Shown here: in pieces, positions 1 through 14,972 of the stretch
Numbering within the stretch: the stretch's first letter is position 1
How the letters are laid out: each line of letters starts with the position of its first letter
DNA from: an uncultured bacterium
GTDB lineage: Bacteria; Patescibacteriota; Gracilibacteria; Absconditabacterales; Absconditicoccaceae
Assembly (NCBI GenBank): GCA_903943625.1
Contig: CAJAPL010000054.1
Span: forward strand, 1-14,972
Direction: 5' to 3'
DNA: 14,972 bases
Position numbers and translations under genes: made by a program
The notes under the pieces: generated by a model
Told to the model about the DNA's origin: nothing
Database searches by the model: none
The model's input: only the letters and a program-made list of their open reading frames with translations

Positions 1-2
1 AT

Positions 3-764
3 AAACATTTCGACATTATTGTAAAAAACTTATTAAAACATAAAAATAAGCTAATAGAAATAGAAAAAATCAAAGCTATCTGAAGAAAAATATTGGACAC
101 AGACTACTCAGAAAAGAAGCTATATAAGATAATTTATTACCTGAAGAATAGGGAATACCTTCAAAGTTTAAAAAAAGATATACTACTCGTAAAAGATCCA
201 GAAAAGCAATACACCAACCAACAGCTACTAGAAACTTATTATCGGAATATTTTAAAAAAACATTGTAATGAATTTGTAGTATGAAAACGATATATATGAT
301 GAATCAAGGCCTTAGAGTTAAATCATTCCTCCTATGATATACCAGAAGAAATACTTATAGTAAACTCACAAAAACAATGCACAGAAACAGTAATGTTTGA
401 CAAACAAATACTATTTAAATCGTATTCCTCAGACACAAAAAAGCTATTTTCGGTTTTTTACAAAATGACAAGGAAGATATACATAAAAAATAATGTATTC
501 CCTATAGCAAACACCGAACTTGCAATCTTAGAAAGTCTTTATAACCCATCTGTAATAAATAAGTGATATGCCGATGAATTTATAAAAAAAATATTAAGGA
601 AAAACAAAAATTCCCTAGATACAAAAGTACGGGAACAAATCGTCAAAACATCAAAACATCACAGTAGCATCAATAGACTCTATAAGTTAGCCCAGTGAGT
701 AGACCCAGAGATAACTGAAAAGATAAAGAACATAATCAAAAGGTATAGTTACTTTATCTGATAG
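3..764 (+). CDS. AbiEi-like antitoxin / winged-helix regulator, 5'-truncated by window edge
   Basis: The frame is open from the window edge to TAG at 762-764 if TGA is Gly (about 253 residues visible; true start lies upstream). The N-terminal part (around residues 25-65) looks like a winged helix-turn-helix, with YKIIYYLKNREYL followed by a basic wing. Then comes a segment like the AbiEi core (KRYIGGIKALELNH, then DIPEEILIV), followed by NNVFPIANTELAILESLYNP, which matches the 'IA-pEkAllDlLY' signature of AbiEi-type antitoxins. Family members repress their own operon and neutralise the AbiEii nucleotidyltransferase toxin. Here no AbiEii gene follows: the next gene is lgt on the opposite strand, overlapping this 3' end by 11 bp. 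A partner, if any, must lie upstream of the window. In-frame TGA codons occur at about 81, 285, 300, 303, 564, 696 and 759. Family assignment rests on motif pattern only. Confidence 0.55.
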
Positions 765-1602
765 AAACTTTCTGAGGATTCCTCAAAAGGAAATATAATC
801 ACAGAAAAAAGAAACATATAAAAAACCGCTGACTTTTGGTTAAATATAGGATGAATTCTGATTGGCTATCCATTCTTAAATATTCAAGAAAAAATCTAGC
901 AATACTATATCGCACAAGAAAAAATCAAGTAATATATCCTATTCTATATATTCACTTTCTTATAAACTTTAACAAAATGATAGAGGTAAAGACAAACAAC
1001 AAAAATCACTCAAAGAAACCAGCCAAAAGATTTGTATTTATCCTAAGGAAGCTATCTACATTGTCATAAACATGGAATATATGCAATTTCTGAAATAAAC
1101 TTATAATCCGATTGCTTAATCATCGAAAATCATACGGGACTAAGATACCGTACAACTCTTGGTTTAAAAAGTTTCAAATCCTACCAAACATAATACCCAA
1201 AGGAGTTATCGTCAATATCAGGTCAAGAAGCCGAAGCAATTCAGATTTTTTTAGTTTCCTTTTTCTAGCAAATATAATCATTGAGACTGAGACTCAAACC
1301 ATCCCGCCAATAAAAGACATCCCTCATTTTCGAAACTGTAACATTTCTCTAGGAGAATCAAAATAATACCACAAATCATATATTAATATATGTCATAGCC
1401 TGCCTCATAAAAGAACTCACAATACACAATACAAAATAAGATCGTCTGTATGCTTATCAAGTAGCAAGTGGATTTTAGGATAATTCATAAAGACCTTTCT
1501 TTTTGCCAATAAGTAGAAAAATATATAGGCAGACATAAAAGCAACCACATAGAAAACTCAATACCGATAAATATCTATGGGTCACACAGAAAAAGCTATC
1601 AT
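754..1602 (-). CDS. lgt: Prolipoprotein diacylglyceryl transferase (Lgt)
   Basis: Lgt transfers diacylglycerol from phosphatidylglycerol to the lipobox cysteine of prolipoproteins in the inner membrane. The 282-aa product has the normal family length. It shows the N-terminal SVGPIDIYRYGVFY, then LGGRLGHILIYDLWYY, GGMSFIGGMVG (residues about 94-104), FGRIGNFLNQELYG (139-152) and the C-terminal GFFLVRYSIARFFLEYLR. These match the Lgt signature GRxGNFxNxE and the late R...E pair (R236, E240). Arg141 and Glu149 align with E. coli R143 and E151. The oddity is Ile98 where the family has His (SFHGG, E. coli H103). Several signature glycines, including G143 in GRIGNF, are TGA, so standard-code callers miss the gene and find meaningless plus-strand ORFs at 836-1069 and 1112-1366. 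Start is ATG at 1602; a TATAAT lies only 10 nt upstream (1618-1613) and there is no SD. It converges on and overlaps the upstream plus-strand gene. Confidence 0.9.
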
Positions 1603-1612
1603 TATTTTTTTT

Positions 1613-1647
1613 ATTATAAAACAAAAAATAATCTAAAGATTATTTTT
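1613..1647 (-). terminator. Hairpin terminator of the pilus operon, followed by a TATAAT for lgt
   Basis: A perfect 10-bp stem, AAAAATAATC (1624-1633) with GATTATTTTT (1638-1647), has a 4-nt loop. Read leftward it runs into TTTTTTGTTTT, as expected for a terminator of the gene ending at 1667. Immediately beyond it is TATAAT (1618-1613 on the minus strand), 10 nt from the lgt start, which could be an lgt -10 box giving a very short leader. No convincing -35 was seen. Confidence 0.5.
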
Positions 1648-1666
1648 AAAAAAACAAGGTATAAAA

Positions 1667-2356
1667 TTAATTACCCAGTGTGTTTAAGACTTCTTTTGTA
1701 GTCACTAGCTCATCAAGCAGCCCATTTTTTATAAAATCAAAGTTCCTTATTATCAGATTTTTTTGTGATTGTACGTAATCATATTTGATTTTTACAAAAT
1801 CATAATAATAACTTAATTGATCAAATAAAACCGTCTTGGCATTCATTTTTATCCTATTTTCTCAGGCACATTTTTGAGCATTAATTGATTTTTGTAATGA
1901 CTCATCCATATATTCCTGGTCATATAATGCTATTGATTCAAAAAACTGCCTGTCATATAGATCCTTTTCATCCAAGCAATCATTCATGTCGGACTCCAGC
2001 AATCAAATATCTTGCCTCAAAGCACTCATGGAAAATCAAACATTAGTTAGCAATTGATCAGTATCATTAAGATATTTATCTAGCGTAACTTCTTTCATTG
2101 CGCTAAATTCCAACATGGAAATAATACTTACAGATGCGTGGGTCTTTATACTTTTCAATAGATAAAGTACTCAATCTTGTTGGACATTATTGGTATTATC
2201 AAAACTATTACTAGCAACTCCTCTATGTAATCATATCAAAAAAAGCGATATATTTTCATTCCCCAAAATATAATTAGCAGAAAGAAAATTTGATCCCAAA
2301 AATAATAATGGTATAAACAAAAGAAATAGTGCGGTTTTAATATAGGACTTAAACAT
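1667..2356 (-). CDS. Unknown membrane-anchored or secreted protein in pilus operon (229 aa)
   Basis: Not recognised. The 229-aa product starts at ATG 2356, 23 bp after the PilC-like gene, and ends at TAA 1667-1669. Residues 3-24 form one hydrophobic segment (YIKTALFLLFIPLLFLGSNF) preceded by a lysine, so it is either a signal peptide or an N-terminal anchor. The rest is hydrophilic and helix-prone, with many Asp, Asn, Gln, Tyr and Leu and two isolated cysteines (near C-L-D-E and K-C-A-G). Nothing resembling a pilin prepilin-peptidase site (GFTLIE) was seen. Position as last gene of an assembly-ATPase/PilC operon suggests a role in the pilus or secretion apparatus, perhaps an extracytoplasmic accessory or alignment subunit, but that is inference from context. 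In-frame TGA gives Gly at several places. A terminator-like hairpin lies just downstream. Confidence 0.75.
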
Positions 2357-2379
2357 AAAATCAAATACAGATCTAAATA

Positions 2380-3471
2380 TTATTGTACAACATTAACAAG
2401 TTCTGCCATAGGCAAAAATATTGATCACACGATTCATCATATTATAACAGCAACAAATGCCATTAAGATTGGTTCCAAAGCAGACATCAAAATAGCTATT
2501 CTAGATTTTAATAACGTATCATAAAACACAGAAATTTTCTTCATAGATTCACCGATACTTCAAGTATTTTCTCAAACATTTACTATTTGCACAAGTATAG
2601 GATCAAAAAGACTTGATCATTCCATAGAATCATAGAAGCTAAATCCAGCAGAAATATCATCTTTTATTTCAAGCATTTTTTTCTTATATTGAAAATTTGT
2701 TAATATTCTGGACATTAGTTTTAGTGATATTACTGGATTGACTCAAGCCTGATAAAATTGAGCCAAAGAAGAACAAAATCTGTACATATAAAATGTTTTA
2801 ACCACTCATTTCACAACAGGGATTTTCAAAAGCATCGTATCAATAAATATCTTAAATGGCAAGAAATATTTATACATAAATTGGATACCAATAACTCATC
2901 CAAAAATAAGCATTATAAGGAAAACTCGAGTTTTCTTTAGAAAATCAGATAGCCCAAGCATCAGTCTTGTTATATAAGGAAGTTGGTCTGGCTGTGGGAA
3001 CATAGACACTATACTCGGCATAACAAACACAAGTAAGACTATAACCGCCGCTATAGAGAATAGAATCAAAATAATAGGGTAAGTCAGAGCCTTCTTTATG
3101 CTCTGTCTTATGCTCTGGGTATTTTCAAGTTCATCAGCGATTTGAGATAGTACTTCTGGTAAATTCCCAGTTAATTGAGCTGATCTCACAAGCTCTATTT
3201 CAGAATATCAGAAAAAATAATCATGATTTTCCATTGCTGATGCAAGGTTTTCTCATTGTGTCATCTGCTCTATTAAATCATCTATTATCATACGCAATCA
3301 TCTATGGTCCTCAGACTGTTTAATTGACAAAAGGCAATCTCTGATTCATAGTCACGCATTCTGAGAAATAGCCATTAATCTAAAAAAATTAGTCTTATGG
3401 TTCAGTCAGGGAGCAGAAAACTTTATCATAAGCTTCTCTAGCATTCATCACTTCAATATTTTTTGAGACAT
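2380..3471 (-). CDS. pilC: Type IV pilus / type II secretion inner-membrane platform protein (PilC/GspF family)
   Basis: PilC/GspF proteins sit in the inner membrane and couple the cytoplasmic assembly ATPase to pilus subunit polymerisation. The 363-aa product shows the duplicated family architecture: a first cytoplasmic domain (residues about 25-125, including FFRLMAISQNAGLGI and SAQLTGNLPEVL), a transmembrane segment at about 130-157, a second near 180-200, a second cytoplasmic domain (FCSSLAQFYQAGVNPVISL, then VNVGENTGSIGESMKKI), and a C-terminal transmembrane helix at about 330-358 ending PMAELVNVVQ. The paired 'GExTGxL' motif appears in both halves (degenerate in the first). It is a little shorter than the usual 400 aa at the N-terminus. 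ATG at 3471 is preceded in frame by a stop at 3472-3474, which fixes the start. It follows the ATPase gene by 18 bp. No SD is visible. Confidence 0.92.
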
Positions 3472-3489
3472 TTATTATCAAATTACAAA

Positions 3490-4809
3490 TTAAAAAGATT
3501 TTCATTTTACAAATTTGAAAACCTGATCCATGCTGAGAAGTCATTTTATAACCTTAAACACACCATCTCTTTCAAGGTTTATCATACCACTCTTTAATGC
3601 GGCCTTTTCTATTTCAAACGCTTGCTTTCATTCCAACAACATCGTCTTTATCTCATCGTTATAAGGCATCATTTCAAATATTCCAAGTCTTCACTTGTAA
3701 CCACTTCATCAACAGACAGAGCATGTTTCTCATGTTTCAGGGTCTTTTCAAGTCCCCATATGGATATATCATTCATTTATGAAATCGTTCCATTGCTCCT
3801 GGGAAATCCCCCTACTTATAATTTCTTTTTTTAAAGCACTCTCATCAAAATTACGAAAAGATTCTTTTACATATTCTAGTCTTTTATCTCATTTTATAGA
3901 CACTCTAGCCTTACAACGCTTACAATTTGCTCTACAAAGCCTCTGAGCAATAACCAAATTAAAAGTACCAACAATCATATAAGCCTTAGCTCATAAGTTT
4001 AGGACTCTCGTGATGGTTTCAACCGCAGAGTTTGTATGAACAGTCGAGAATACAAGATGTCAGGTCATCGCAGACTCCATAGCCATATCCAAAGTTTCAT
4101 TATCACGGATTTCTCATACCATCATAATGTCAGGGTCTTGCCTGAGTCAGCCTCTAAGTCAACTGGCAAATGTAAATCATATATCCGCTCTTATCTGAGC
4201 CTGATTAAGTCAGGACATTTTATTTTCTACTGGATCTTCATATGTAATAATATTAACTTCTGGCGTATTTACTTCAGTAAGACAGGCGTAAAGAGTGGTT
4301 GTTTTACCGGATCATGTAGGTCAAGTATTCAAGATAATTCAGTTTGGATATTTCAAATAAGTTTCAAGAATTTGTTGATTACTACCTTCTATACCTAACT
4401 CTGAAAGTGGGGGGATATCTTTTGATTTATCCACGATACGCATTACCAATTTCTCTCACCAAACCGTAGGCAAGGTATTTGCACGCAAATCTATTTCCTT
4501 GTTTGTTTGAGTAACATTTGAAACTCTAGCATCTTGGGGAAGCCTCTTTTCATCGGGTCTCATCTGACCAGATTCGATTTTAAATTTTGATATAATACTT
4601 TCGTGAAGATGTTTAGGATATTGAATCAGTTCTTCCAAAACTCAATCCACTCTGAGTCTTATTCTAGAATAATTTTCCAATGGCTCTATATGAATATCTG
4701 ATGCTCAATCTTCAACCGCAATAGTTAAAAGATTATCAAAAATCTTTACAACATCCGATTGTAAAACTGCCTGATTTAACTTTTCTCTAAATTGAGCTGT
4801 TTCCGTCAT
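3490..4809 (-). CDS. pilB: Type IV pilus assembly / type II secretion ATPase (PilB/GspE family)
   Basis: A hexameric cytoplasmic ATPase that powers pilus extension or secretion together with PilC. The 439-aa product has the GspE core: GASDIHIEP near residue 40 (Asp/His box start), then the Walker A motif G-P-T-G-S-G-K-T at residues 163-170, a Walker B region ending [21 protein letters not shown], and a zinc-binding tetracysteine region (C292, C296, C299, then C363 and C366) followed by the typical [12 protein letters not shown]. It lacks the extra N-terminal GspE-N domain found in longer relatives. Both Walker A glycines (codons at 4321-4323 and 4312-4314) and the glycine of GEIRD (4114-4116) are TGA. 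A stop at 4813-4815 just upstream fixes ATG 4809 as start. It is the first gene of the operon with pilC and the 229-aa gene. A retraction ATPase (PilT) is less likely because of the zinc motif. Confidence 0.93.
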
Positions 4810-4848
4810 TATCTAAAAGCTTTAACTCATATAAATTAGCACAAACTA

Positions 4849-4877
4849 ATTATAACTAATTTATCTCTAAAAAGCAA
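4849..4877 (-). promoter_or_regulatory. Promoter of the pilB-pilC operon
   Basis: On the minus strand TTGCTT (4877-4872) and TATAAT (4854-4849) are separated by exactly 17 nt. This is a near-consensus sigma70-type promoter. It leaves a leader of about 35-40 nt before the ATG at 4809 and lies between the serS terminator and the operon. Confidence 0.6.
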
Positions 4878-4904
4878 AAAATCACAAAACAAATTTTATA
4901 TACA

Positions 4905-4929
4905 AAAATGAGGCTTACTGCCCCATTTT
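4905..4929 (-). terminator. Rho-independent terminator of serS
   Basis: The stem AAAATG-A-GGC (4905-4914) pairs with GCC-C-CATTTT (4920-4929), with one A/C mismatch and a 5-nt loop. Read leftward it ends in a short U run. It lies 41 bp past the serS stop, so it separates serS from the pilus operon. Confidence 0.6.
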
Positions 4930-4969
4930 CTATATTTTCACAAAGTTTGTTTTTTTTATTAAATTTTGG

Positions 4970-6247
4970 CTATTTACCTATATATTCTTTGCCCATATAG
5001 GGAACCAATACATCTGGGATCTTGATTGTTCAATCTTTTTGTTGGTTATTTTCAATTATAGCAATCATAGTTCTTCACATAGCAAAAGCCGTAGCATCAT
5101 TCATATAAACAAACTCCTTTTCTCAATTATTTTTCTTAAATCTAGTATTTAGTCTGCGAGATTGGAAGTCAGTCACGAAATCAGATGTATGTGTTTCTCT
5201 ATAACTGCCTTGCCCTGCCATATAAGTATCCACATCTATGTGTCTATAATCAATGTCTCACATATCTCAAGTACAGCCTTCAATCAAGCGATAAGGCAAT
5301 TTCAAAAGTCCCATCATATATTCTTGCAGTCAAACTATAAGTTCCTGTTCCTGTTCTCAAGTCTCTGGGGTACTAAATGTTTCGATTTCCATTTTATCAA
5401 ATTGATGAACTCTGATTATTCATCTAACATCTTTTCCATAGGTTCAAGCCTCTCTCCTAAAAGCAGTAGAATAGCCCACCATACGGACAGGCAAGTCACT
5501 CTCATCAAACATTTTATCCATATACATTGATCACATAGTGTGTTCAGCGCTTCATACCAAAACCTGTTTATCATCATGTAGACAATATCTCTCATCCATA
5601 GGGTGCAATCTTCACATTTTTTCCATTACTTCCATTTTCATAATCACTGGCGGAAGGAGTGGGACATAGGGAGTATCTTGAATCTTTAATTTCTTTTCTT
5701 TGATTATTTTCTGTATCACTTTCCTATCTCACAATATTCTAAAAGCAAAAGTCATTATTGCTAGTTGCAATAGTACCAAATCTCATTTAATATACGTAAA
5801 TCTTGTTCAAGAAACCTTAGCCCCCGTTTCTTTATCTATGATGTCCCAAAGTTTGCCCAATTCTTCGTGATCTTTGGGGTCAAAATCAAATTTAGGAATA
5901 TCTCAACAAACTTTTATAACAACATTTTTCTCTTCACTTTCTCCTATTGGAGTATCTGGATGATAAAAGTTTGGCATAGTAAGAATAAGTTTATTAAACT
6001 CCTCTACTACTTTATCATAATCCAGTTCTAGTTTCTGTATTTCAGATTTCAATTTTTTAGCTCAATCAAAATCTTTTTTTGCCGCAAATTCCTTTTGTTG
6101 AAATTTCATATCATCAAGCCTCTTTTGAAGATCTCTCCTTTGATCATCTAGACTAAGCATCAAATCCACATCTACGTCCTTGTTTTTATTCTTACATACC
6201 TGCTTGTAAGCCGCCACATCTTCACGCACTTTCTTAATATCTATCAT
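4970..6247 (-). CDS. serS: Seryl-tRNA synthetase
   Basis: Cytosolic class II synthetase charging tRNA-Ser. The 425-aa product has the family's normal length. The N-terminus (MIDIKKVREDVAAY, then DLMLSLDDQRRDLQKRLDDM) is the antiparallel coiled-coil arm that grips the long variable arm of tRNA-Ser. Class II motif 2 appears as [21 protein letters not shown], starting at residue 263. Motif 3 region reads NDATAFAMGRTMIAIIENNQ, and the protein ends with IPDVLVPYMGKEYIGK, a typical SerRS C-terminus. The active-site strand YMAGQGSYRETHTSD is present. Glycines of motifs 2 and 3 include TGA codons, which split the gene in the standard code. It stops at TAG 4970-4972. The upstream region has an AT-rich TATAAA 8 nt before ATG, with a CTGATT 17 nt further up, and no SD, so the mRNA may be nearly leaderless. 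Confidence 0.96.
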
Positions 6248-6433
6248 TTTACTAGTTTATAATTAATAATTAAAAATCAATCAGCTAATATCTGAGTTAT
6301 AACGAAAGATTTAGAGTCACGAAAGCAAATCAGTATAATAACGCAAATCAAAAGACAGGATCATTTTTTCTTGTTCTAATAGAATAAATCCATAGAGTAT
6401 AGTTAACAATTTAGCTTTTTTTTACAATCCCAA

Positions 6434-6820
6434 ATGCAGCAAAACATACCACTAATAATTATATGAATAATAATCTGACTGATAATCGGATACCTTGTAT
6501 CAAAAATATATTTCCAGACAAAGATCAAATGACAAAGGCAAGAAGCAGTTTCTAGATCTCGTTCAGTTTTGCTTGGGAATGTAAATGAAAAAGTTGCTCC
6601 ACTGCTACCAAATTTCCCATATTACTATAAGGACTTGGTATTTGTAGGCAAATGAGTAGATTATATAGTCTTCAACTGATTATCTTCTGGGGACTTGAAA
6701 AATATAGTATTTTTGGAAATCAAGAGCTGAACATCAACACTTAACAGAAACGAAAGAATGATAAAAGAATGTACGGAAAGTAAAAAAGTATATTACGACA
6801 CATACTATGTAAAGAATTAA
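6434..6820 (+). CDS. Small membrane-anchored endonuclease related to archaeal Holliday junction resolvase
   Basis: The 128-aa product begins with a transmembrane helix (residues about 5-24, PLIIIGIIIGLIIGYLVSKI). It then shows SRSVLLGNVNEKVAPLLPNF, KDLVFVGKGVDYIVF and IVFLEIKSGTSTLNRNER. This order (R-x-x-L-x-G...E-x-x-A-P-x-x-P, then K-D-x-x-F-x-G-x-x-x-D-(Y/F)-I-V-F, then E-(V/I)-K-(S/T)-G) is that of the Endonuc_Holl family (Pfam domain for endonucleases related to archaeal Holliday junction resolvase). The E..., D and E-x-K residues would form a PD-(D/E)xK-type metal site. Biological role in the family is poorly known; a role in DNA uptake or repair near the membrane is speculation. Three of its glycines are TGA. 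It is transcribed away from serS and converges with the VanW gene, 10 bp beyond its stop. Confidence 0.8.
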
Positions 6821-6830
6821 CTAAGAACAG

Positions 6831-7904
6831 CTATCTAACAGCGGCATTTTTACTATCATATCTTGAATCAAAAGTCTGAGTACTTTTTGGTTCTCAAGAC
6901 TCTATTTCATATATTTCTTTAACGACTTTAGCCGATAACTTTCATATCTGTTCCTTATTGACATTCACTCATCTAGATGATTTTTGGGGGGTTACAGCGA
7001 CAAAATAATTGAACGATCACTTATCAAGAGTCTTAAAATATATCTCTTGGGGCGATGTATTTTTTATCTCAAATTGTTTACTATTCTGATAGACGGCAGC
7101 ATCATCTCAGTAAATATAATCCGAATAGTAAGCCGTAAGCCATACACTATGTCAGGATCTTTTTAATATCTCTATATCAGGGTTAATAAGGGAGACTCTA
7201 AAAAGCTGGCTAGCAAATCAACAAGTCCCTCAATAAAACATCAAATCTTGAGGTCAGCGTCATTTACAATATCAAGGCAAATAAGAAACATGGTCATTCA
7301 GATTTATTGTTTTTCACGCCGCTAATATAAAGTTATCAAAGCTAGCTAGAGCTACTTTATAATTTTGTTTTGTACAAGGCTTTAGCAAACTCAAATCCTT
7401 ACGTACTACAAAAAATCAAAGCTCTTTAGCTTTTTCATAGTAAATATATTTTATTGGGATTGAAATCTTCTTTCATTGTTGTTGCAAATTAGCCAATAGG
7501 TATTTTTGCCTGTCACTCTTAGGCATAATGGATTTATATGACTGGAAAAAGGGGGTCGTAGATTCATAGGTAAAATTTTTACTAGAATCATTGTAAACCT
7601 CATTAAATCATCACAAATCCGGCCATACCTGGTCTATAATAGTTTTATATGACACATCAGGAAAGTCTTTTCTAAGTAAACATGTTGGAGATAAAATATA
7701 ATTATTTCAGCTAATTTGATATTCACATTTTTCATCCTTAATCAGAATGAGTTTCTTTAATAAAGATATTTTGGGTATTTTTTTACTATATACAGATAAA
7801 GTATTTAAATTTTTCATATAATCCGAAAATCTTAATGTATCTTCAGCAAAACTAAAAGATAGAAGATAAACGGATATAACTAAGATGTGAATAAGATATT
7901 TCAT
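6831..7904 (-). CDS. Secreted VanW-domain protein
   Basis: The 357-aa product starts with a clear signal peptide (MKYLIHILVISVYLLSFSFA, cleavage likely before Glu-Asp), so it acts outside the cytoplasmic membrane. The central and C-terminal part matches the VanW domain: FDNFILAAGKTINLNDHVSY, then a GGTCGFASQLFRV motif around Cys228 (family GGGiCQvsttLyraa), GHSVWLTAYYSDYIYGDDAAV (His252, Asp268; family Hs--v-Yyp-G-DA-V), and QFEIKNTSPQEIYF. VanW proteins occur near vancomycin-resistance genes and in many Gram-positives and CPR. Their biochemical function is not settled, though they are usually linked to peptidoglycan. The first 190 residues, before the VanW domain, are not recognised. In-frame TGA is frequent. 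Start ATG 7904 gives the signal peptide directly. No SD. It converges on the endonuclease gene. Confidence 0.8.
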
Positions 7905-8015
7905 AAGATATAGAGTAATGATAACCTTACGTTACCACAATAAATAGCTCCCTCTAATATTATAAACTATTTAAAAAATTTGTCAAATCTTTGTGGTGTC
8001 AATAATATGTATAAT

Positions 8016-8043
8016 TTGATTATTACACTATACGAAATATAAT
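8016..8043 (+). promoter_or_regulatory. Promoter of the 8.05-8.28 kb RNA
   Basis: TTGATT (8016-8021) and TATAAT (8038-8043) are spaced by 16 nt on the plus strand. The predicted start, near 8050, lies at the beginning of the structured region. Between the VanW gene start (7904) and this promoter nothing else was recognised. Confidence 0.55.
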
Positions 8044-8049
8044 TAGACT

Positions 8050-8284
8050 AACATAGTTACTTATCGTAGTTCTACTACACCTACTAGGTAACCATGTTGG
8101 AGGTATTCCTCCTAAAACACTATCTAGATCTTTTACCCCAAAAGATCAGATGGAATTAGGAGAGCACCGGAAGTTTATTATACAATCTATAGGAAATACA
8201 AAAAAAATGTATTTAAATCGGTTGTATGAAACCGACTCTGGTGCTCTCCAATCTTAAACTAGAGGTATCCCCCTAGTTTTTTTT
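8050..8284 (+). ncRNA. Unidentified structured RNA (about 235 nt)
   Basis: No protein-coding signal, but a series of strong hairpins lies between a promoter and a terminator. From 5' to 3': GTTAC/GTAAC (8056-8060 with 8088-8092) enclosing GTAGT/ACTAC (8066-8078); GGAGG/CCTCC (8099-8112, loop TATT); GATCTTTT/AAAAGATC (8127-8147, loop ACCCC); and a 12-bp helix GGAGAGCACCGG (8159-8170) with CTGGTGCTCTCC (8238-8249, one G-U pair). The last encloses two more hairpins, AAATACA/TGTATTT (8194-8214) and TCGGTT/AACCGA (8218-8235), making a three-way junction. A terminator hairpin follows. I do not see the conserved cores of RNase P RNA, SRP RNA, tmRNA or a T-box. It is intergenic between divergent-facing vanW-like and gltX genes (gltX converges on it), so it is probably a free-standing RNA rather than a leader. 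Could be a very divergent 6S or other housekeeping RNA. Confidence 0.55.
8256..8284 (+). terminator. Rho-independent terminator of the structured RNA
   Basis: The stem AAACTAG-A-GG (8256-8265) pairs with CC-C-CTAGTTT (8270-8279), with one A/C mismatch and a 4-nt loop, followed by an unbroken T run to 8284. It lies 24 bp beyond the gltX stop and could also slow transcription coming from gltX. Confidence 0.75.
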
Positions 8285-8308
8285 ATATTTCGGATATTTT
8301 ATCACCAT

Positions 8309-9961
8309 TTATCATTTAATCAAAGTTAATCTTTTAATCACTCTATCTTTCCCCATCACTTTCATTACAGAAAATAGGTCTGGAGTCTGACTAGCACAAC
8401 AAAGAACTATCCTCAAAAACATAGCCAAATCTCATATTTTTCAAACATATCATCACTGTTTAAATTCAGCATTATTGCAAGCAAATCAGAAGTTTTTTCA
8501 GACTTCTTTCAATTGATTAAATCGCTCCTCCGTTCACATATTTAAATCTAAAATATTCGAATATTTGCTAACAAAATTATTTATCAAAGCTTGATTAAAT
8601 ATTTCAGGCAATATTGGTTTAGTTTCGAATAGAGTTTCTCGTTCACTATCATAAAAAAATAAAATCTGATTCTCGACATCTCTAAACGTTGTAAATCTTT
8701 TGGGATCTTTTTCTGTATGTCTTTCTATGTTTATAGCGGCTTTTGTATATTCAGCATCAGATTGCATAAGTTCTGCTAATTTCGGATTATATTGTTTTGC
8801 CCACTCCAATGTTTCTTCATAAAGCTGGTCTGTTGATATTCTAGACATATAATTATTGGACACACTATCAAGCTTCACAAGGTCAAACAAAGCTCAAGCA
8901 TGATTCATTTTATCTAGCTTTATTTCAAAATCTTTATAAGATTTTTCAGGGTTGTTTAGCTGTCGTCATTCAAATTCAGAAGAGATAATTCACATTATAT
9001 ATTCTATAATTCACTGTATGGGATATCATTTTTCAAAGAAAAACTCCACATTAGCCTCAGGATCCTTTCTTTTACTTAGTTTTCTTTTCTTTCCATCTTC
9101 TATCTTCAAAATCTGAGCAGGATGACAATATTTGGGAACTCCCAAATCACAGGCCTTAAATAGCTGTAAATGTAATGGCACAGAAGTAAGCCATTCTTCT
9201 GCTCTTATAACGTGAGAAACTCTCATCAAATGATAATCAACAACATGAGCCATATGATAAGTGGGCAATCAGTCTCATTTAATCAAAACCACATCATTGT
9301 AATTATCTATCATATTTACGTCTCATCTTATTTCATCATGAAAGATTATCTTCTTAGCTAAATCACCAGGAGACCTAAATCTGATTACTTCATATTTTCC
9401 ATTGGTATCTTTTAATTTCTGAGCAATCTCTTCTATTGATTTATCTCTTCGGACAGAGTACTTTCAATAAATTCAAGGGACTAATTTTGATTTGGTTTGA
9501 TTTTCTCTGATTTGATTTATTTCTTCTTCAGTCATCCAGCAAGGATATGCCAATCATTTTGAAATAAGTTCTTTAACAAAAACCTCATAAAAATATTTTC
9601 TCTTTGATTGGATATATGGTCAATAATTTCACACATCTGCATTACCAGGTCATATAGGTCATTCATCTATTTTTATTCAGAATTTTTTGAATCATTGTAT
9701 GATAATGTCTATTCATCATTCGGTCAATCTTTTTTGATCTGTATCTTCTATTCTAAGAAAAAAGGTTCATCAATTTTGTTCTGCAAATCTTGAAGCCAAG
9801 GTCCCAGTAAAAAGTGCTCATATATGCAAAAATCCAGTTGGGCTAGGAGCAAAACGCGTACAAATGGGATTTTCTCTGGGGGGGAACTTTTTTTTCAAAT
9901 CAGCTATCGTTTCTTTCACGTCAGGGAATGTAATATCAGCAATATCTTTTCGCGTAGTCAT
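8309..9961 (-). CDS. gltX: Glutamyl-tRNA synthetase (possibly also charging tRNA-Gln)
   Basis: Cytosolic class I synthetase. The 550-aa product opens with CTRFAPSPTGFLHIGALFTG; the HIGH-type motif is H46-I47-G48-A, with G48 encoded by TGA (9818-9820). LRIEDTDQKR follows, then LPTYHMAHVVDYHLMRVSHV and RAEEWLTSVPLHLQLF. The second signature is KLSKR (294-298), the KMSKR equivalent. The C-terminal anticodon-binding part ends SQTPDLFSVMKVMGKDRVI...L. It is somewhat longer than the usual 470-500 aa. Several TGA codons occur in quick succession around residues 60-110, where standard-code reading collapses. ATG at 9961 is preceded by TATAAA only 6 nt upstream, with no SD. Whether it is discriminating or also makes Glu-tRNA-Gln depends on GatCAB elsewhere in the genome. 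Confidence 0.96.
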
Positions 9962-10130
9962 AATTTATAAATATTAATAAAAAATCTAATAAGAAAATAA
10001 CAATTCTGGATACAAATTCAAGCATTTAACCAAATCACAGCACATTTTTATGAATCAATTTTTATATTGCAAAATACCAACAAATAAATAGAAATACAAC
10101 GCCATAATTTTATTTTTAAAGAAAAATTCT

Positions 10131-11159
10131 ATGAAGTTAGACGGTAAGAGCATACAAACAGCGATTATGCAATTGGTAGAAGATTTTAAATTCGACCCAT
10201 ATCAGATTTTAGAAATTGTCAAGCTTTGAATAAGATCAGGGTTTAAGAAAGATTTTCCAGAACACAAAAAATCAGATATTATAGTAAATATAGAAAATGA
10301 TGGTGTCGTGACAATTTACCAAGAGCTTGAAGTTGTAGAAATTGTCGAAGATAGAGATATCCAGATAACCCTACCAGATGCAAAAAAGATCCGCGAAGAT
10401 ATAAAGATATGAGAAAAATTACTTATAAATGTCACACCAGAAAAGCTCGAACTATCTAGGATAGCGGCTCAAGCAGCAGCTCAAACAATAAAACAGAATC
10501 TCAAAAACATAGAAAGAGAGAGATTTTTTGAAAAATTCCAAAACAAACAGTGAGAATTATTGAAAGCAAAGGTAATTAGAGTACATGCAGATAGCGTAAT
10601 CTTGGACATAGAATGATCAGCTGTTGTATTACTCCCCGACTGACAAATACCGCACAGGATTTATGAACCAGGCGAAGAGATTTTTGTACTATTAAAACAA
10701 ATATCAAAAGACCAATGATGAATAGTACTTGATATAACACAGTCTACAACAGACTATATAGAAGCAATTCTAAGAAAATTAGTACCAGAACTAGAAGAAT
10801 GAGTAATCAAAATAGATAAGATAGCTAGAATAGCCGGTAGAAAGACAAAAATTATAATATCATCCAACGAAGAGAAAGTAGACCCAGTATGAGTAATGGT
10901 AGGCCACAGATGAGATAGAATAAACACAGTACTATCGCTACTTGATTGAGAAAAAATAGATTATATCGAAAAAACCGATGATCCAATCCAAATGATAAGA
11001 AATTGTCTTAAACCAGCACAAATAGAAAGTATCGAAATAAATGACAAAAAAGCTACCGTCGTTGTTAATGAAGATCAAAAAGCACAAGCAATATGAAAGT
11101 GAGCTTCCAACATCAAGTTAGCTACACAATTAACCGGATATCAAATCGAAATAAGATAA
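10131..11159 (+). CDS. nusA: Transcription termination/antitermination factor NusA
   Basis: NusA binds RNA polymerase and nascent RNA and modulates pausing, termination and antitermination. The 342-aa product has the RNAP-binding N-terminal domain (residues about 1-125, with ILEIVKLGIRSGFKKDFPE and SRIAAQAAAQTIKQNLKNIE), an S1 domain (about 135-200, ELLKAKVIRVHADSVILDIE), and two KH domains. KH1 contains VDPVGVMVGHRGDRINTVL (VDPVG at 250-254) and KH2 has IGKGASNIKLATQL (322-335). It lacks the C-terminal acidic repeats of E. coli NusA, as many short homologs do. The GxxG loop glycines (codons at 10890, 11094, 11100 and that of HRG) are TGA, a strong sign of Gly decoding. ATG 10131 follows a purine-poor leader without SD. 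It is divergent from gltX (169 bp between), and an intrinsic terminator follows. Confidence 0.96.
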
Positions 11160-11182
11160 TTAAATATATTATCATCCAACAA

Positions 11183-11210
11183 AAATCTTGATTAAGTTCA
11201 GGATTTTTTT
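11183..11210 (+). terminator. Rho-independent terminator of nusA
   Basis: AAATCTTG (11183-11190) pairs with CAGGATTT (11199-11206) with one G-U pair and an 8-nt loop, followed by a T run to 11211. It starts 24 bp after the nusA stop and abuts the stop of the converging NAGPA-domain gene (11210-11212). Confidence 0.7.
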
Positions 11211-12253
11211 TATAGTTTATCAACAACATAGGCTCTTATAAGGATTTCATGAAAAATAGATTTTTTAGCAATATCATACTTGTCAGATGAAAACATTCAA
11301 CGAATAAGTTTTATAATTTTCCATTTATAATCTTCTCAATATTGCCTAACTATAGATTTTATAATTTTGTCTAATTTATCTACAAATTTTCGATCATCAC
11401 TATTTAAGTTATATTTAGCATCTTCTTGATAAGCTTGTTTTTCCGGTGGTGTAATTCCAGTAAGTTTAATATATTGTTCTCTAGTCAGTACAACAAATGC
11501 ATCCATAATATTCCTCCTAGCTCCCCTATCCAAAACCAATCCTGAATATACCATCCCTAAGCTAGCTCAGGCATCCAAATTAATTGCGTTTCGACATCAA
11601 AAATTTTTCTTTATAAAGTCAGACAATTTCCATAAATTTATTCATCCCACGACTCACATATATATAGTTTTATTGTCCTGAGTAGAACAGATAAACGATT
11701 TATTTCAGTTGGTCTCCATTTTTTTATCTATATAGTTTACAAATCACATTGATACGTCCTCTCAACTATCCAGGAAAACAGGGAAGTTCCCAAGTCAGAA
11801 ATATAAATCATTTTGTTTGTCTTTATTTACATTACTCCGATATCATACATCATGAAGTCAAAAATTATTTTGTACAAGCAATGGCTCTCAATTCTTATCG
11901 AAACCAAATATCGCTCTTATACTGGTATCTGGCCAAAATCTACTATAGTCCTTGGCGTTTCATAGATATATCCTTTCAGAAATAGTATGCGTAACTCCGT
12001 CACAATAATTATAATCCTTGGGACAAAAATAAACTCCATTAACAGACGTATCTCATCAAACTTTTTTAGTAAGACTTTCCAAGGTAGCTCAACCATCCAC
12101 CGCCACAGAACTGACAACATAGTCTTGTCAATCTAAGATCACTTTTATGACTCTAATGGGCAGTCATCACCTATTTTCTATCAACAATTCCCTATAACCG
12201 AAAACAGTTCAAAATAAAAATAAAAAACTGATTATAAATAATATTTTTTTCAT
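11210..12253 (-). CDS. Secreted phosphodiester glycosidase (NAGPA-domain) protein
   Basis: The 347-aa product begins with a signal peptide (MKKILFIISFLFLFGTVFG). After it come an Asp/Gly-rich repeat-like stretch and a C-terminal core ending with the NAGPA signature: MGVVGGINLWKLSDFIKK, then CRNAINLDAGASLGMVYSG (about residues 222-240) and RRNIMDAFVVL. The motif NLDAGAS matches NLDGGGS of the phosphodiester-glycosidase/exopolysaccharide-biosynthesis family, though the second and third Gly of GGGS are Ala here. Family members hydrolyse GlcNAc-phosphodiester linkages (mammalian uncovering enzyme) and act on surface polymers in bacteria; substrate here is unknown. About 90 residues follow the domain (KLTGITPPEKQAYQED... 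to AYVVDKL), helical and highly charged, not recognised. It lies downstream of mutL on the same strand with 116 bp between. No SD. Many glycines are TGA. Confidence 0.72.
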
Positions 12254-12350
12254 AACAGACGTAAAAACATAAAAACGTAACAACTAATAAAACTATAAAT
12301 GTTTATCTATTTTTATCAATATTTATCAAAAGCCAAAGGATTTGTTTATG

Positions 12351-12367
12351 GTCTGCATTTTGCAGAC
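12351..12367 (-). terminator. Hairpin just past mutL
   Basis: A perfect 6-bp GTCTGC/GCAGAC stem with a 5-nt loop begins 2 bp beyond the mutL stop. On the minus strand it lacks a strong U tract (CATAAAC follows), whereas on the plus strand TTTTA follows. It may be a weak terminator or an mRNA 3'-end stabiliser. Confidence 0.35.
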
Positions 12368-12369
12368 TT

Positions 12370-14118
12370 TTATCTATCAAACATCTTATCAATATTATTT
12401 TTCTCAACCTGTACAAAAAAAGTCCTTCCATGTTGACATACAAACATGCCCTCAATATTGTCAAATCACTCTTTAACTAGATTTGCCATTTGTTGCATTG
12501 ACAATCTATGTCCCGCTTTTATGGAAGTTTTGCAAGCTTTGGTGGCAAAGATTCAGTCTAAAACGTTATCATAAGTAATCTTTTCAAGATAAAAAACATA
12601 GTTCAAAAGTTTCGATAAATCTACAGGATAAATAACAAAAACTTTTGGAACAGCGTAAACAGCAATTACATTTTCACCTATCAGAGAGATATCAAATCAC
12701 AGCTGATTTAATTGAGAAATTTTATCCTGTGAATCGGGGATATTTATAACATCAAACTTTAATGGTTGTAAAAGTATTTCAGGATTTAAACTTTTCTCCT
12801 TTTTCATCTTTTCAAATGCAATTCTCTCTGCTAAAGCATGCTGATCTATATAGTATACACTGTCTTTATCCTCAAGTACGATATAACTGTTCCGCATCTG
12901 TCAGACCAATTTGTACTCTCATATAAATTCATTTTCAAATATTTTTTCTTCCTCAAAATCAACAAATCCAGACCCATGAACACTAAAATTTGAAATTTCG
13001 TTTGGCGAGATCAGTCCTTCTTGGATAAACTTGTCTGCGTTATTTTGTTTATCGGTTCAAACCACCAAATTGAATTCCGATCATTTTGCAATATCTGGTC
13101 TTTTAAATTCCATACTAACGCTAGCTATTTTATTTCATGAAAGGGCAGTTTTTACACTTTCATAAATCACTTCATAAATTTTTCTCGAATCTCGAAATTT
13201 AACTTGAAGTTTGCTAGGATGAACGTTCACATCTACCATATCAGTTTTCACATCCAATATTAATATAGCAAGTGGATATTCGCCTGGCATTATTTGTCTA
13301 TAATAAGCATCCATCAACGCTTTTTTAATTACTTTATCTTCAATGGGCCTAGAGTTTACATATATCTTAATGTTTTCGGCGGAACCAAAACGCAAGCTAG
13401 AATCAGATACAACTCACCAAAGAGTTAAGCGGTCGTCTGTATAGTTTATATCCAACAAGTTCGCAGATCGATCTTTTTTATATATATCAGTTATCCTAGC
13501 TAACAATCATTCTTGTGGTGTCAAGTCAAAGACTATTTTATCATTTTTCTTCAAAACAAAGCGTTTATTATAATGCCGTAGAGCAATATCAACAAAATAA
13601 TTGTAACAATAATAAAATTCAGTCTGAGCAGATTTCAAAAATTTTTGTCTGGCGGGGACATTATAAAAAATATCTTCTATACTTATAAATGTTCAATGTT
13701 CAAACCCGACAGGCACATTTTTGATAATATTTTCAGCGCCTCTCCTAGTAAGTTTTGTTCATATTTCACTATACGTAGTTTTGGAAATCACGGTCGTTTT
13801 GCTTACTTCAGCGATACTAGCCAAAGCTTCTCATCTAAATCAATAATTCTTTATATTAAACAAATCTTCTTCGTTATTTATCTTGGATGTAGCATATCTT
13901 TCAAGGAGCAAGTCCATATCTGAGAGTTCAATTCCACTTCAATCATCTTGCACACTAATCAGACTTTTTCATCAATCATTTATACAGATCTCGATATTCT
14001 CTGCCCCAGCATCCAGACTATTTTCCACCAATTCTTTAATTACAGAAGCTGGCCTCTGAACTATTTCTCAGGCCTTTAATCTATTTATTATGTAATCTGG
14101 CAGTCTATGTATCGCCAT
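12370..14118 (-). CDS. mutL: DNA mismatch repair protein MutL, endonuclease-type
   Basis: MutL links mismatch recognition by MutS to strand incision. The 582-aa product has the GHKL ATPase N-terminus: [20 protein letters not shown] (motif A16-G17-E18, G17 encoded by TGA at 14068-14070), [35 protein letters not shown] and [15 protein letters not shown], then the transducer segment with [14 protein letters not shown]. The C-terminal dimerisation and nuclease domain carries [12 protein letters not shown] (D425 to E436), which fits DQHA-x2-E-x4-E, plus [13 protein letters not shown] and the end CQHGRT (C561), a variant of CPHGRP. The nicking activity typical of organisms without MutH is therefore expected. 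ATG 14118 follows a repeat-rich spacer and has no SD. MutS is not in the window. Confidence 0.95.
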
Positions 14119-14122
14119 TTGA

Positions 14123-14186
14123 AGAGCCAATAGTCAATAACTAAAAGTTAAGAGCCAATAACTAGGTATCAATAGCTAAAGGTTAA
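14123..14186. repeat. Short interleaved direct repeats upstream of mutL
   Basis: AGAGCCAATA recurs at 14123-14132 and 14151-14160. TCAATAACTAAAAGTTAA (14134-14151) recurs as TCAATAGCTAAAGGTTAA (14169-14186) with two changes. The units interleave, leaving a spacer of AT-rich near-repeats directly before the mutL start, within the presumed promoter region. It looks like slippage-derived spacer DNA. A regulatory role cannot be excluded. Confidence 0.55.
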
Positions 14187-14266
14187 ATACTTTTATAATT
14201 TTCCCTTGAATTTTCAACCAAGAATCACAAAAGATAAAAACATCCTATTAAAAATCAATAATACAA

Positions 14267-14581
14267 ATGATAAAATTAATCAGATTTATACAGAAGTATT
14301 CTACACAGCTAAAATATTGATTACTATTTTTTGCTATCATTTTTATGATATTTGCTATCAGGTCATATCTGAACAATATAGCTATATTAGACGCCATCGA
14401 TTGAGTAGAAAAAGAGAAAAAAGCAAAAATCGATGAGATTAATTTTACTCAAAATTTTTTGACGAAATATTTATGATCAGATTATGCAGATTATTTTTTA
14501 GCACATGAAAATAGTATTTTATATAAAAATGAGTTTATTCTGAGGCTAGATATGAATATTCACAATCAAGACCTTACTTAA
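14267..14581 (+). CDS. Small single-pass membrane protein, probably 3'-truncated at an assembly join
   Basis: Not recognised. The frame starts at ATG 14267 (in-frame TAA at 14249 fixes this) and gives 104 residues with three in-frame TGA (Gly). A short cytoplasmic N-terminus (MIKLIRFIQKYSTQLKYG) leads into one transmembrane helix (LLFFAIIFMIFAIRSYL, about residues 19-35). A charged, coiled-coil-like stretch follows (DGVEKEKKAKIDEINF), then DYADYFLAHENSILYKNEFI. The topology is like FtsB/DivIC, FtsL or PilN/PilO-type proteins, but no signature supports any of them. The TAA at 14579 lies where the sequence changes to foreign DNA, so the visible stop is probably not the native one and the true protein likely extends further. 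Confidence 0.5.
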
Positions 14582-14590
14582 AGTAAACCT
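14545..14590. other. Probable chimeric assembly junction
   Basis: Left of this interval the DNA is AT-rich and uses TGA as Gly. Right of it the DNA is about half G+C, codes continuously in the standard code without TGA, and uses GGN glycine. The right-hand gene enters mid-protein with no start or N-terminal domain. The exact breakpoint cannot be fixed by eye. Confidence 0.7.
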
Positions 14591-14972
14591 GAAGGTTGAA
14601 AAAGTAATTGTTGAGGGTCCTGGGGTTATTTCAGTAATCATGAAGGGCCGTAACTTGCACACACTTGGTGCCCAAGGTGGTCAGTTCTTTGGGTGGCGCT
14701 TTTTAGCAAGAGGACATTTCTTAATGTCTCATCCTTATTCGCTATCTGCTGCTCCTACGGAGCACCTGATGCGTATTACCGTTAAAGATTTAGGTGATCA
14801 CTCACGCTCACTTGCCTTTATGAAGCCAGGAACAAGAGTCTTTGTTGAAGGGCCTTATGGTGCTTTCACTGCAGGGCGCTCAACGCGCCCTCATGTGGTT
14901 TTAGTAGGTGGCGGTGTGGGAATCACGCCTATTAGAGCGATTATGGAAGAGCTCAGTGGCGGCGTGCAGATG
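14580..14972 (+). CDS. FAD/NAD-binding domain of an actinobacterial-type ferredoxin/ferric reductase (fragment, both ends missing)
   Basis: Open in the standard code to the window end, with no start codon that fits the family. The residues read LKVNLKVEKVIVEGPGVISV, then GRNLHTLGAQGGQFFGWRF, SHPYSLSAAPTEHLMRITVK, LGDHSRSLA, GTRVFVEGPYGAFT and VVLVGGGVGITPIRAIMEEL. RxxS-type FAD binding (HPYSLSAAP) followed by the nucleotide-binding GGGVGITP is the ferredoxin-NADP reductase (FNR) fold. This sequence style, with 'GQFF-WRFL' and 'KDLGDHS', is that of actinobacterial ferric-reductase-like membrane flavoproteins, whose N-terminal heme-binding transmembrane domain is missing here. It would move electrons between NAD(P)H and heme. 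Trp is TGG and Gly is GGN. The organism is probably a different community member. Confidence 0.8.

Follow-up and report, generated by a model that had tools for sequence, protein, structure and literature searches.

The 14,972-nucleotide contig CAJAPL010000054.1 (assembly GCA_903943625.1), from an uncultured bacterium of the Absconditabacterales (SR1-type), appears to use a genetic code with three departures from the standard one: UGA is read as glycine, and CGA and CGG are both read as tryptophan. From sequence comparison we put the probability of this assignment at roughly 0.95. We refer to the whole contig as the window. An initial annotation of the window proposed genetic code 25. Its reading of UGA as glycine stands, on the evidence of glycine columns, the absence of release factor 2 (RF2) from the family and the glycine identity bases of tRNA(UCA) in relatives; table 25 fails as the full code, since by their alignment columns CGA and CGG encode tryptophan as well. 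The code that fits is the fuller one published for Absconditabacteria, and not table 25. The Absconditabacterales code is presumably NCBI table 37.

The excerpts of Shulgina and Eddy (2021; PMC8629427) used here report that in Absconditabacteria CGA and CGG have moved to tryptophan, besides UGA to glycine. The same is restated for Absconditabacterales in an excerpt of PMC13092985, and UGA as glycine is reported for Vampirococcus in one of PMC8080830. Because both reassignments are thus already in print, what is added here is the correction of table 25 together with the codon-usage figures.

UGA on glycine columns

Under table 25, positions 3–14581 are tiled by 13 open reading frames (ORFs), hand-picked from 48 mechanically called ones. 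These frames hold 191 in-frame TGA in 4,429 codons (3 to 30 in every frame) and neither TAA nor TAG, whereas the five other frames of the same DNA carry 93–175 TAA and 26–119 TAG each. Because TAA and TAG are absent from the coding frames and abundant in every other frame, the frames are non-random. This bears on the possibility that the region is decayed or mis-assembled and rich in nonsense mutations. Although a foreign contig end, described below, shows that assembly errors do occur in this bin, the lack of TAA and TAG and the conservation of the same TGA-rich genes in relatives make such an explanation barely credible. The 13 frames stop at TAA (10) or TAG (3), in line with the initial annotation, a count that is partly circular in that table 25 permits no other stop. 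TGA makes up 191 of their 278 glycine codons (69%), against 87 GGN, and is the commonest of them.

Three genes of the window were used for profile and column comparisons:

754..1602, minus strand: lgt, prolipoprotein diacylglyceryl transferase; 13 TGA, 7 CGA/CGG; TIGR00544
8309..9961, minus strand: gltX, glutamyl-tRNA synthetase; 30 TGA, 5 CGA; TIGR00464
12370..14172, minus strand: mutL; 19 TGA, 4 CGA/CGG; TIGR00585

The native genes had been described as interrupted by TGA and full length once it is sense, and with TGA as glycine all three do match almost the full length of their NCBIfam models. Standard gene calling does miss lgt: table 11 gives no ORF of at least 60 amino acids on the minus strand inside it. 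For mutL the profile matches begin at residues 18–21, which makes the internal ATG at residue 19 the probable true start.

With TGA as glycine, lgt scores 154.2 bits (cut-off 118.9), gltX 294.3 bits (cut-off 289.95) and mutL 444.4 bits. A mycoplasma-like code in which UGA is tryptophan (table 4) opens the frames too, but the scores then fall to 116.7, 241.6 and 381.5 bits, which is 37.5, 52.7 and 62.9 bits below glycine. For the column comparison, the three proteins were aligned with TGA, CGA and CGG masked as X. The alignments include 18 family and 11 outgroup sequences for lgt, 15 and 11 for gltX, and 15 and 5 for mutL, the outgroups coming from other families of the class. A column was taken as conserved where at least 60% of the outgroups agree, with at least three sequences. 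Masked TGA falls on glycine at 31 of 35 such columns, and the remaining four are P, A, L and N, none of them tryptophan. With the glycine rather than tryptophan identity bases of tRNA(UCA) in relatives (see below), this leaves the table 4 alternative close to negligible. The same test on the ribosomal operon (19 ortholog sets; conserved columns at 75% or more, at least five outgroups) places TGA on glycine at 863 of 914 columns when 17 family genomes are taken together; for this genome the figure is 56 of 59.

Release factors and tRNA(UCA)

None of the 19 family genomes, among them the present one, has an RF2 (TIGR00020) match over the cut-off, as the initial annotation had predicted; 11 of 12 genomes from other families do. 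Matches of release factor 1 (RF1) type are present in 17 of the 19; the one in this genome (C14:3072-4142) reaches 381.2 bits, under the curated 423.25. The twelfth other-family genome, G029, lacks RF2 over the cut-off and is itself TGA-rich, with TGA on glycine at 150 of at least 158 columns.

G029 belongs to another family of the class and is 94% complete. In 18 kb of it (stretch L089), TGA makes up 88% of glycine codons, and CGA and CGG are too rare for assignment. It has no RF-1-domain match at all in searches with PF00472 and TIGR00020. Separately, all three genomes of the genus studied here encode an RF-1-domain protein of about 140 amino acids with in-frame TGA (G000:C163:629-1009, stretch L279; G001, L281; G002, L280), with no match in G007 or G016; this small protein could be a ribosome rescue factor of the ArfB type. 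UAG as a sense codon was considered for G006 and G007, where mutL matches contain internal TAG, and was rejected, the TAGs lying upstream of the likely start.

A tRNA(UCA) is present in the same-genus genome G001, which corresponds to the record Candidatus Gracilibacteria bacterium Tobar13m-G42 (stretch L105 inside L135), and similar ones occur in G007 and G016. The G001 molecule has G1:C72, C2:G71, G3:C70 and U73, the glycine identity bases, and its gene lies in a cluster alongside those for tRNA-Tyr, tRNA-Ala, tRNA-Arg(UCU), tRNA-Glu(CUC) and tRNA-Leu(UAA). Its conserved 29-base core matches 31 stretches of named genomes, including SR1 RAAC1 (CP006913.1), MS502-49 and several records labelled Absconditabacteria. 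Thirty of the 31 are complete tRNA(UCA) genes; 29 of these have G3:C70, judged by eye, and L125 has A3:U70. The core pattern has 0 matches in viral contigs. In the copies printed (L105, L119, L087, L121-L151) YTTCAGC or ATTCAGC forms the anticodon loop, with G37; tRNAs for U-first codons usually have A37.

CGA and CGG on tryptophan columns

The window contains 14 CGA, 9 CGG and 14 TGG codons. lgt, gltX and mutL together have 16 CGA/CGG codons. Of the 241 codons that family relatives carry at these positions, 79 are TGG, 56 CGA/CGG, 5 TGA and 2 other arginine codons, where TGG makes up 1.05% of relatives' codons overall. By contrast, AGA codons of the window meet arginine at 365 of 580. Where CGA or CGG lies on an outgroup-conserved column, that column is tryptophan in four of five cases:

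1564..1566, minus strand: lgt codon 13, CGG; outgroups W 8/11; family relatives CGA 10, TGG 5, CGG 1 of 18
1330..1332, minus strand: lgt codon 91, CGA; outgroups W 10/11; family relatives TGG 11, CGA 4 of 18
8963..8965, minus strand: gltX codon 333, CGA, on an invariant tryptophan column; outgroups W 11/11; family relatives TGG 13, CGA 2 of 15
8522..8524, minus strand: gltX codon 480, CGA, on an invariant tryptophan column; outgroups W 11/11; family relatives TGG 9, CGA 6 of 15

On the conserved ribosomal-operon columns, tryptophan is the residue for CGA in 13 of 21 cases and for CGG in 3 of 3 (together 16/24); for comparison, TGG falls on tryptophan at 93 of 113 and CGT on arginine at 34 of 44. 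The assignment of CGG rests on fewer conserved columns (1/1 in the window genes and 3/3 in the ribosomal operon).

The tRNAs of the bin point the same way. Their bases were read by eye, and the identity rules are those quoted in the excerpts of PMC8629427. tRNA(GCG) and tRNA(CCU) have A20 and A73 and look like arginine acceptors. tRNA(UCG) and tRNA(CCG), both of which occur twice, on separate contigs, have G73 and U20 in place of A20, which are bases of the tryptophan identity type; tRNA(CCG) also has A1:U72, like tRNA-Trp(CCA).

These data bear on plain table 25, in which UGA is glycine and CGA and CGG remain arginine. By itself it gives full-length profile matches, and it scores gltX and mutL 1.9 and 3.1 bits higher than does the code with CGA and CGG as tryptophan. 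It is nevertheless improbable, given the two other arginine codons against 79 TGG in relatives, the two gltX columns that are tryptophan in all outgroups, and the lack in tRNA(UCG) and tRNA(CCG), which carry G73, of the A20 shared by the arginine tRNAs of the genome.

Points that weigh against the three-codon code

Several observations tell against reading UGA as glycine and CGA and CGG as tryptophan. The tRNA-Gly(UCA) that the initial annotation expected is missing from this bin: no UCA anticodon occurs among its 33 tRNAs that pass the cut-off, every one of which was read. The bin is 88% complete and has two further weak tRNA matches (16.5 and 15.7 bits), left unread. The 33 include none of the six members of the relatives' cluster (UCA, Tyr, Ala, Arg(UCU), Glu(CUC) and Leu(UAA)) and also lack some others, such as Lys(UUU), Leu(CAA) and Gly(GCC). 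Because these companions are missing too, the absence is most likely a gap in the bin, with the tRNA cluster unassembled or unbinned. The tRNA(UCG) of this genome has G1:C72 and not the tryptophan-supporting A/G1:U72; that of G001 has G1:U72.

The remaining points concern columns and scores. At the 16 CGA/CGG columns, relatives also carry lysine 4 times and other residues 95 times among the 241 codons. Columns were tested for 16 of the 23 CGA/CGG codons of the window, just five of these lie on outgroup-conserved columns, and the fifth of those is cysteine. For TGG in the window itself, the sole conserved column is phenylalanine. Finally, adding CGA and CGG as tryptophan raises lgt by 9.3 bits, to 163.5, but lowers gltX to 292.4 (−1.9) and mutL to 441.3 (−3.1).

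Tryptophanyl-tRNA synthetase and a possible mechanism

A match to trpS, the gene for tryptophanyl-tRNA synthetase (TrpRS), occurs in 17 family genomes, 16 of which have a single copy, so one TrpRS probably serves the CCA, UCG and CCG tRNAs, and two enzymes are rejected as a general mechanism. The exception, G013, has two different full-length trpS genes (L258, L273). Clade-specific changes in TrpRS were also considered and rejected: fixed differences affect 11 of 135 outgroup-conserved columns, no excess over the ribosomal-operon proteins, where the count is 115 of 1,220. In the part that begins at the KMSKS motif, 7 of 40 columns are changed, with p = 0.10 against the ribosomal background and p = 0.016 against the enzyme's own N-terminal part (4/95), so that a concentration of changes after KMSKS is a weak lead. 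G029, in which UGA is glycine, is outgroup-like at 11 of 11 changed TrpRS columns, but likewise at 60 of 88 ribosomal columns.

Considered together, the observations would fit a scheme in which loss of RF2 freed UGA for a tRNA-Gly(UCA) charged by the normal glycyl-tRNA synthetase, while a single TrpRS charges tRNA(CCA), tRNA(UCG) and tRNA(CCG), and CGU and CGC are kept as arginine through tRNA(GCG). UGA is now the commonest glycine codon, and CGA and CGG together outnumber UGG as tryptophan codons in the sample read. The scheme raises the question of how one TrpRS reads three anticodons. A rather doubtful extension is that the reassignment is at a late stage, with CGA and CGG the majority tryptophan codons and the C-terminal, anticodon-binding part of TrpRS changed to accept G36 besides A36; if this were true, UGG could in principle be given up.

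Codon usage in the genome and the family

Usage was counted in a cleaned sample of 103 kb, comprising the window, contig C64 and fetched contigs, minus two likely standard-code contaminants (C6 and C3) and contigs reading N. Here TGA accounts for 1,314 of 2,066 glycine codons. There are 125 TGG, 128 CGA and 44 CGG codons (43.2, 44.2 and 15.2 per 10,000), so that CGA and CGG, at 172, make up 58% of tryptophan codons; in the uncleaned sample they number 187 against 180 TGG, or 51% of 367. Gene calls made with table 25 write arginine for tryptophan, which affects more than half of the tryptophan residues of this genome in the sample read; excerpts of PMC10746230 indicate that genes of these bacterial groups are still called with code 25. 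Both excluded contigs, C3 (L206) and C6 (L209), have a GC content of 0.37, high TGG and long standard-code ORFs. They probably contaminate the bin; the case is clear for C6, less so for C3.

Over the 19 family genomes, the CGA/CGG share of tryptophan codons ranges from 2% to 63%, with the tryptophan assignment assumed in all and column-supported only for some. This graded use lets stages of the reassignment be compared. The idea that filling of glycine positions by UGA drives tryptophan from UGG to CGA and CGG, through a wobble conflict with the UCA tRNA, was rejected, as the proportion of glycine codons that are TGA shows no correlation with the CGA/CGG share of tryptophan (Spearman −0.02, p 0.94, 19 family genomes, kinship uncorrected).

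Relation to known codes

Code 25 of SR1 and Gracilibacteria was reportedly described by Campbell and by Rinke in 2013. The genome resembles it in UGA as glycine and in the loss of RF2, and differs in CGA and CGG, which stay arginine in table 25. With the Absconditabacteria code, as given in the excerpts of PMC8629427 on which this comparison rests, it shares UGA on glycine columns, CGA and CGG on tryptophan columns, an arginine tRNA(GCG), tryptophan-type tRNA(UCG) and tRNA(CCG), low GC and a clade without RF2. Most Absconditabacteria there have fewer than 7 CGG and fewer than 37 CGA per 10,000 codons, the exception being GCA_002791215.1 (CGA 30, CGG 24, UGG 35); CGA/CGG use here is further on than in most of them, in a comparison that sets our own ORF sample beside the Pfam-column measure of the paper. 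Anaerococcus and a Bacilli clade, in the same excerpts, likewise move a CGN-box arginine codon to tryptophan through a tryptophan-type tRNA(CCG), but move only CGG and are without tRNA(UCG), whereas the present genome has tRNA(UCG) and reassigns CGA as well as CGG.

Other genes of the window and the foreign contig end

Besides lgt, gltX and mutL, nine native frames were searched against Pfam and seven have a match, the frames at 3–764 and 1667–2356 having none; the tenth, at 14267–14581, was left out of the search.

3..764, plus strand: ORF open at the contig edge; 7 TGA, 3 CGA/CGG; no family match
1667..2356, minus strand: ORF; 5 TGA; no family match
2380..3471, minus strand: pilC/gspF-like; 17 TGA; PF00482, 1.9e-44
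3490..4809, minus strand: pilB/gspE-like ATPase; 23 TGA; PF00437, 6.3e-110
4970..6247, minus strand: serS, seryl-tRNA synthetase; 17 TGA; PF00587, PF02403
6434..6820, plus strand: Holliday-junction-resolvase-like endonuclease; 6 TGA; PF10107, 1.5e-32
6831..7904, minus strand: VanW-like protein; 17 TGA; PF04294, 1.1e-11
10131..11159, plus strand: nusA; 13 TGA; PF08529, PF13184
11210..12283, minus strand: phosphodiester glycosidase (NAGPA-like); 21 TGA, 3 CGA/CGG; PF09992, 4.7e-11
14267..14581, plus strand: native ORF cut at the foreign-DNA junction; 3 TGA
14583..14972, plus strand: foreign standard-code reductase fragment (flavohemoprotein/FAD_binding_8-like); FAD-binding reductase match

The native region ends at about 14582, as the initial annotation had placed it. 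The last native gene is truncated at the junction with the reductase frame and, because the junction cuts it, its stop codon is untrustworthy. The segment at 14583–14972 has a GC content of 0.48 against 0.31 and a single frame, open from the junction, without TGA, CGA or CGG. It looks foreign and written in the standard code, and is probably a chimeric contig end, or else recent foreign DNA.

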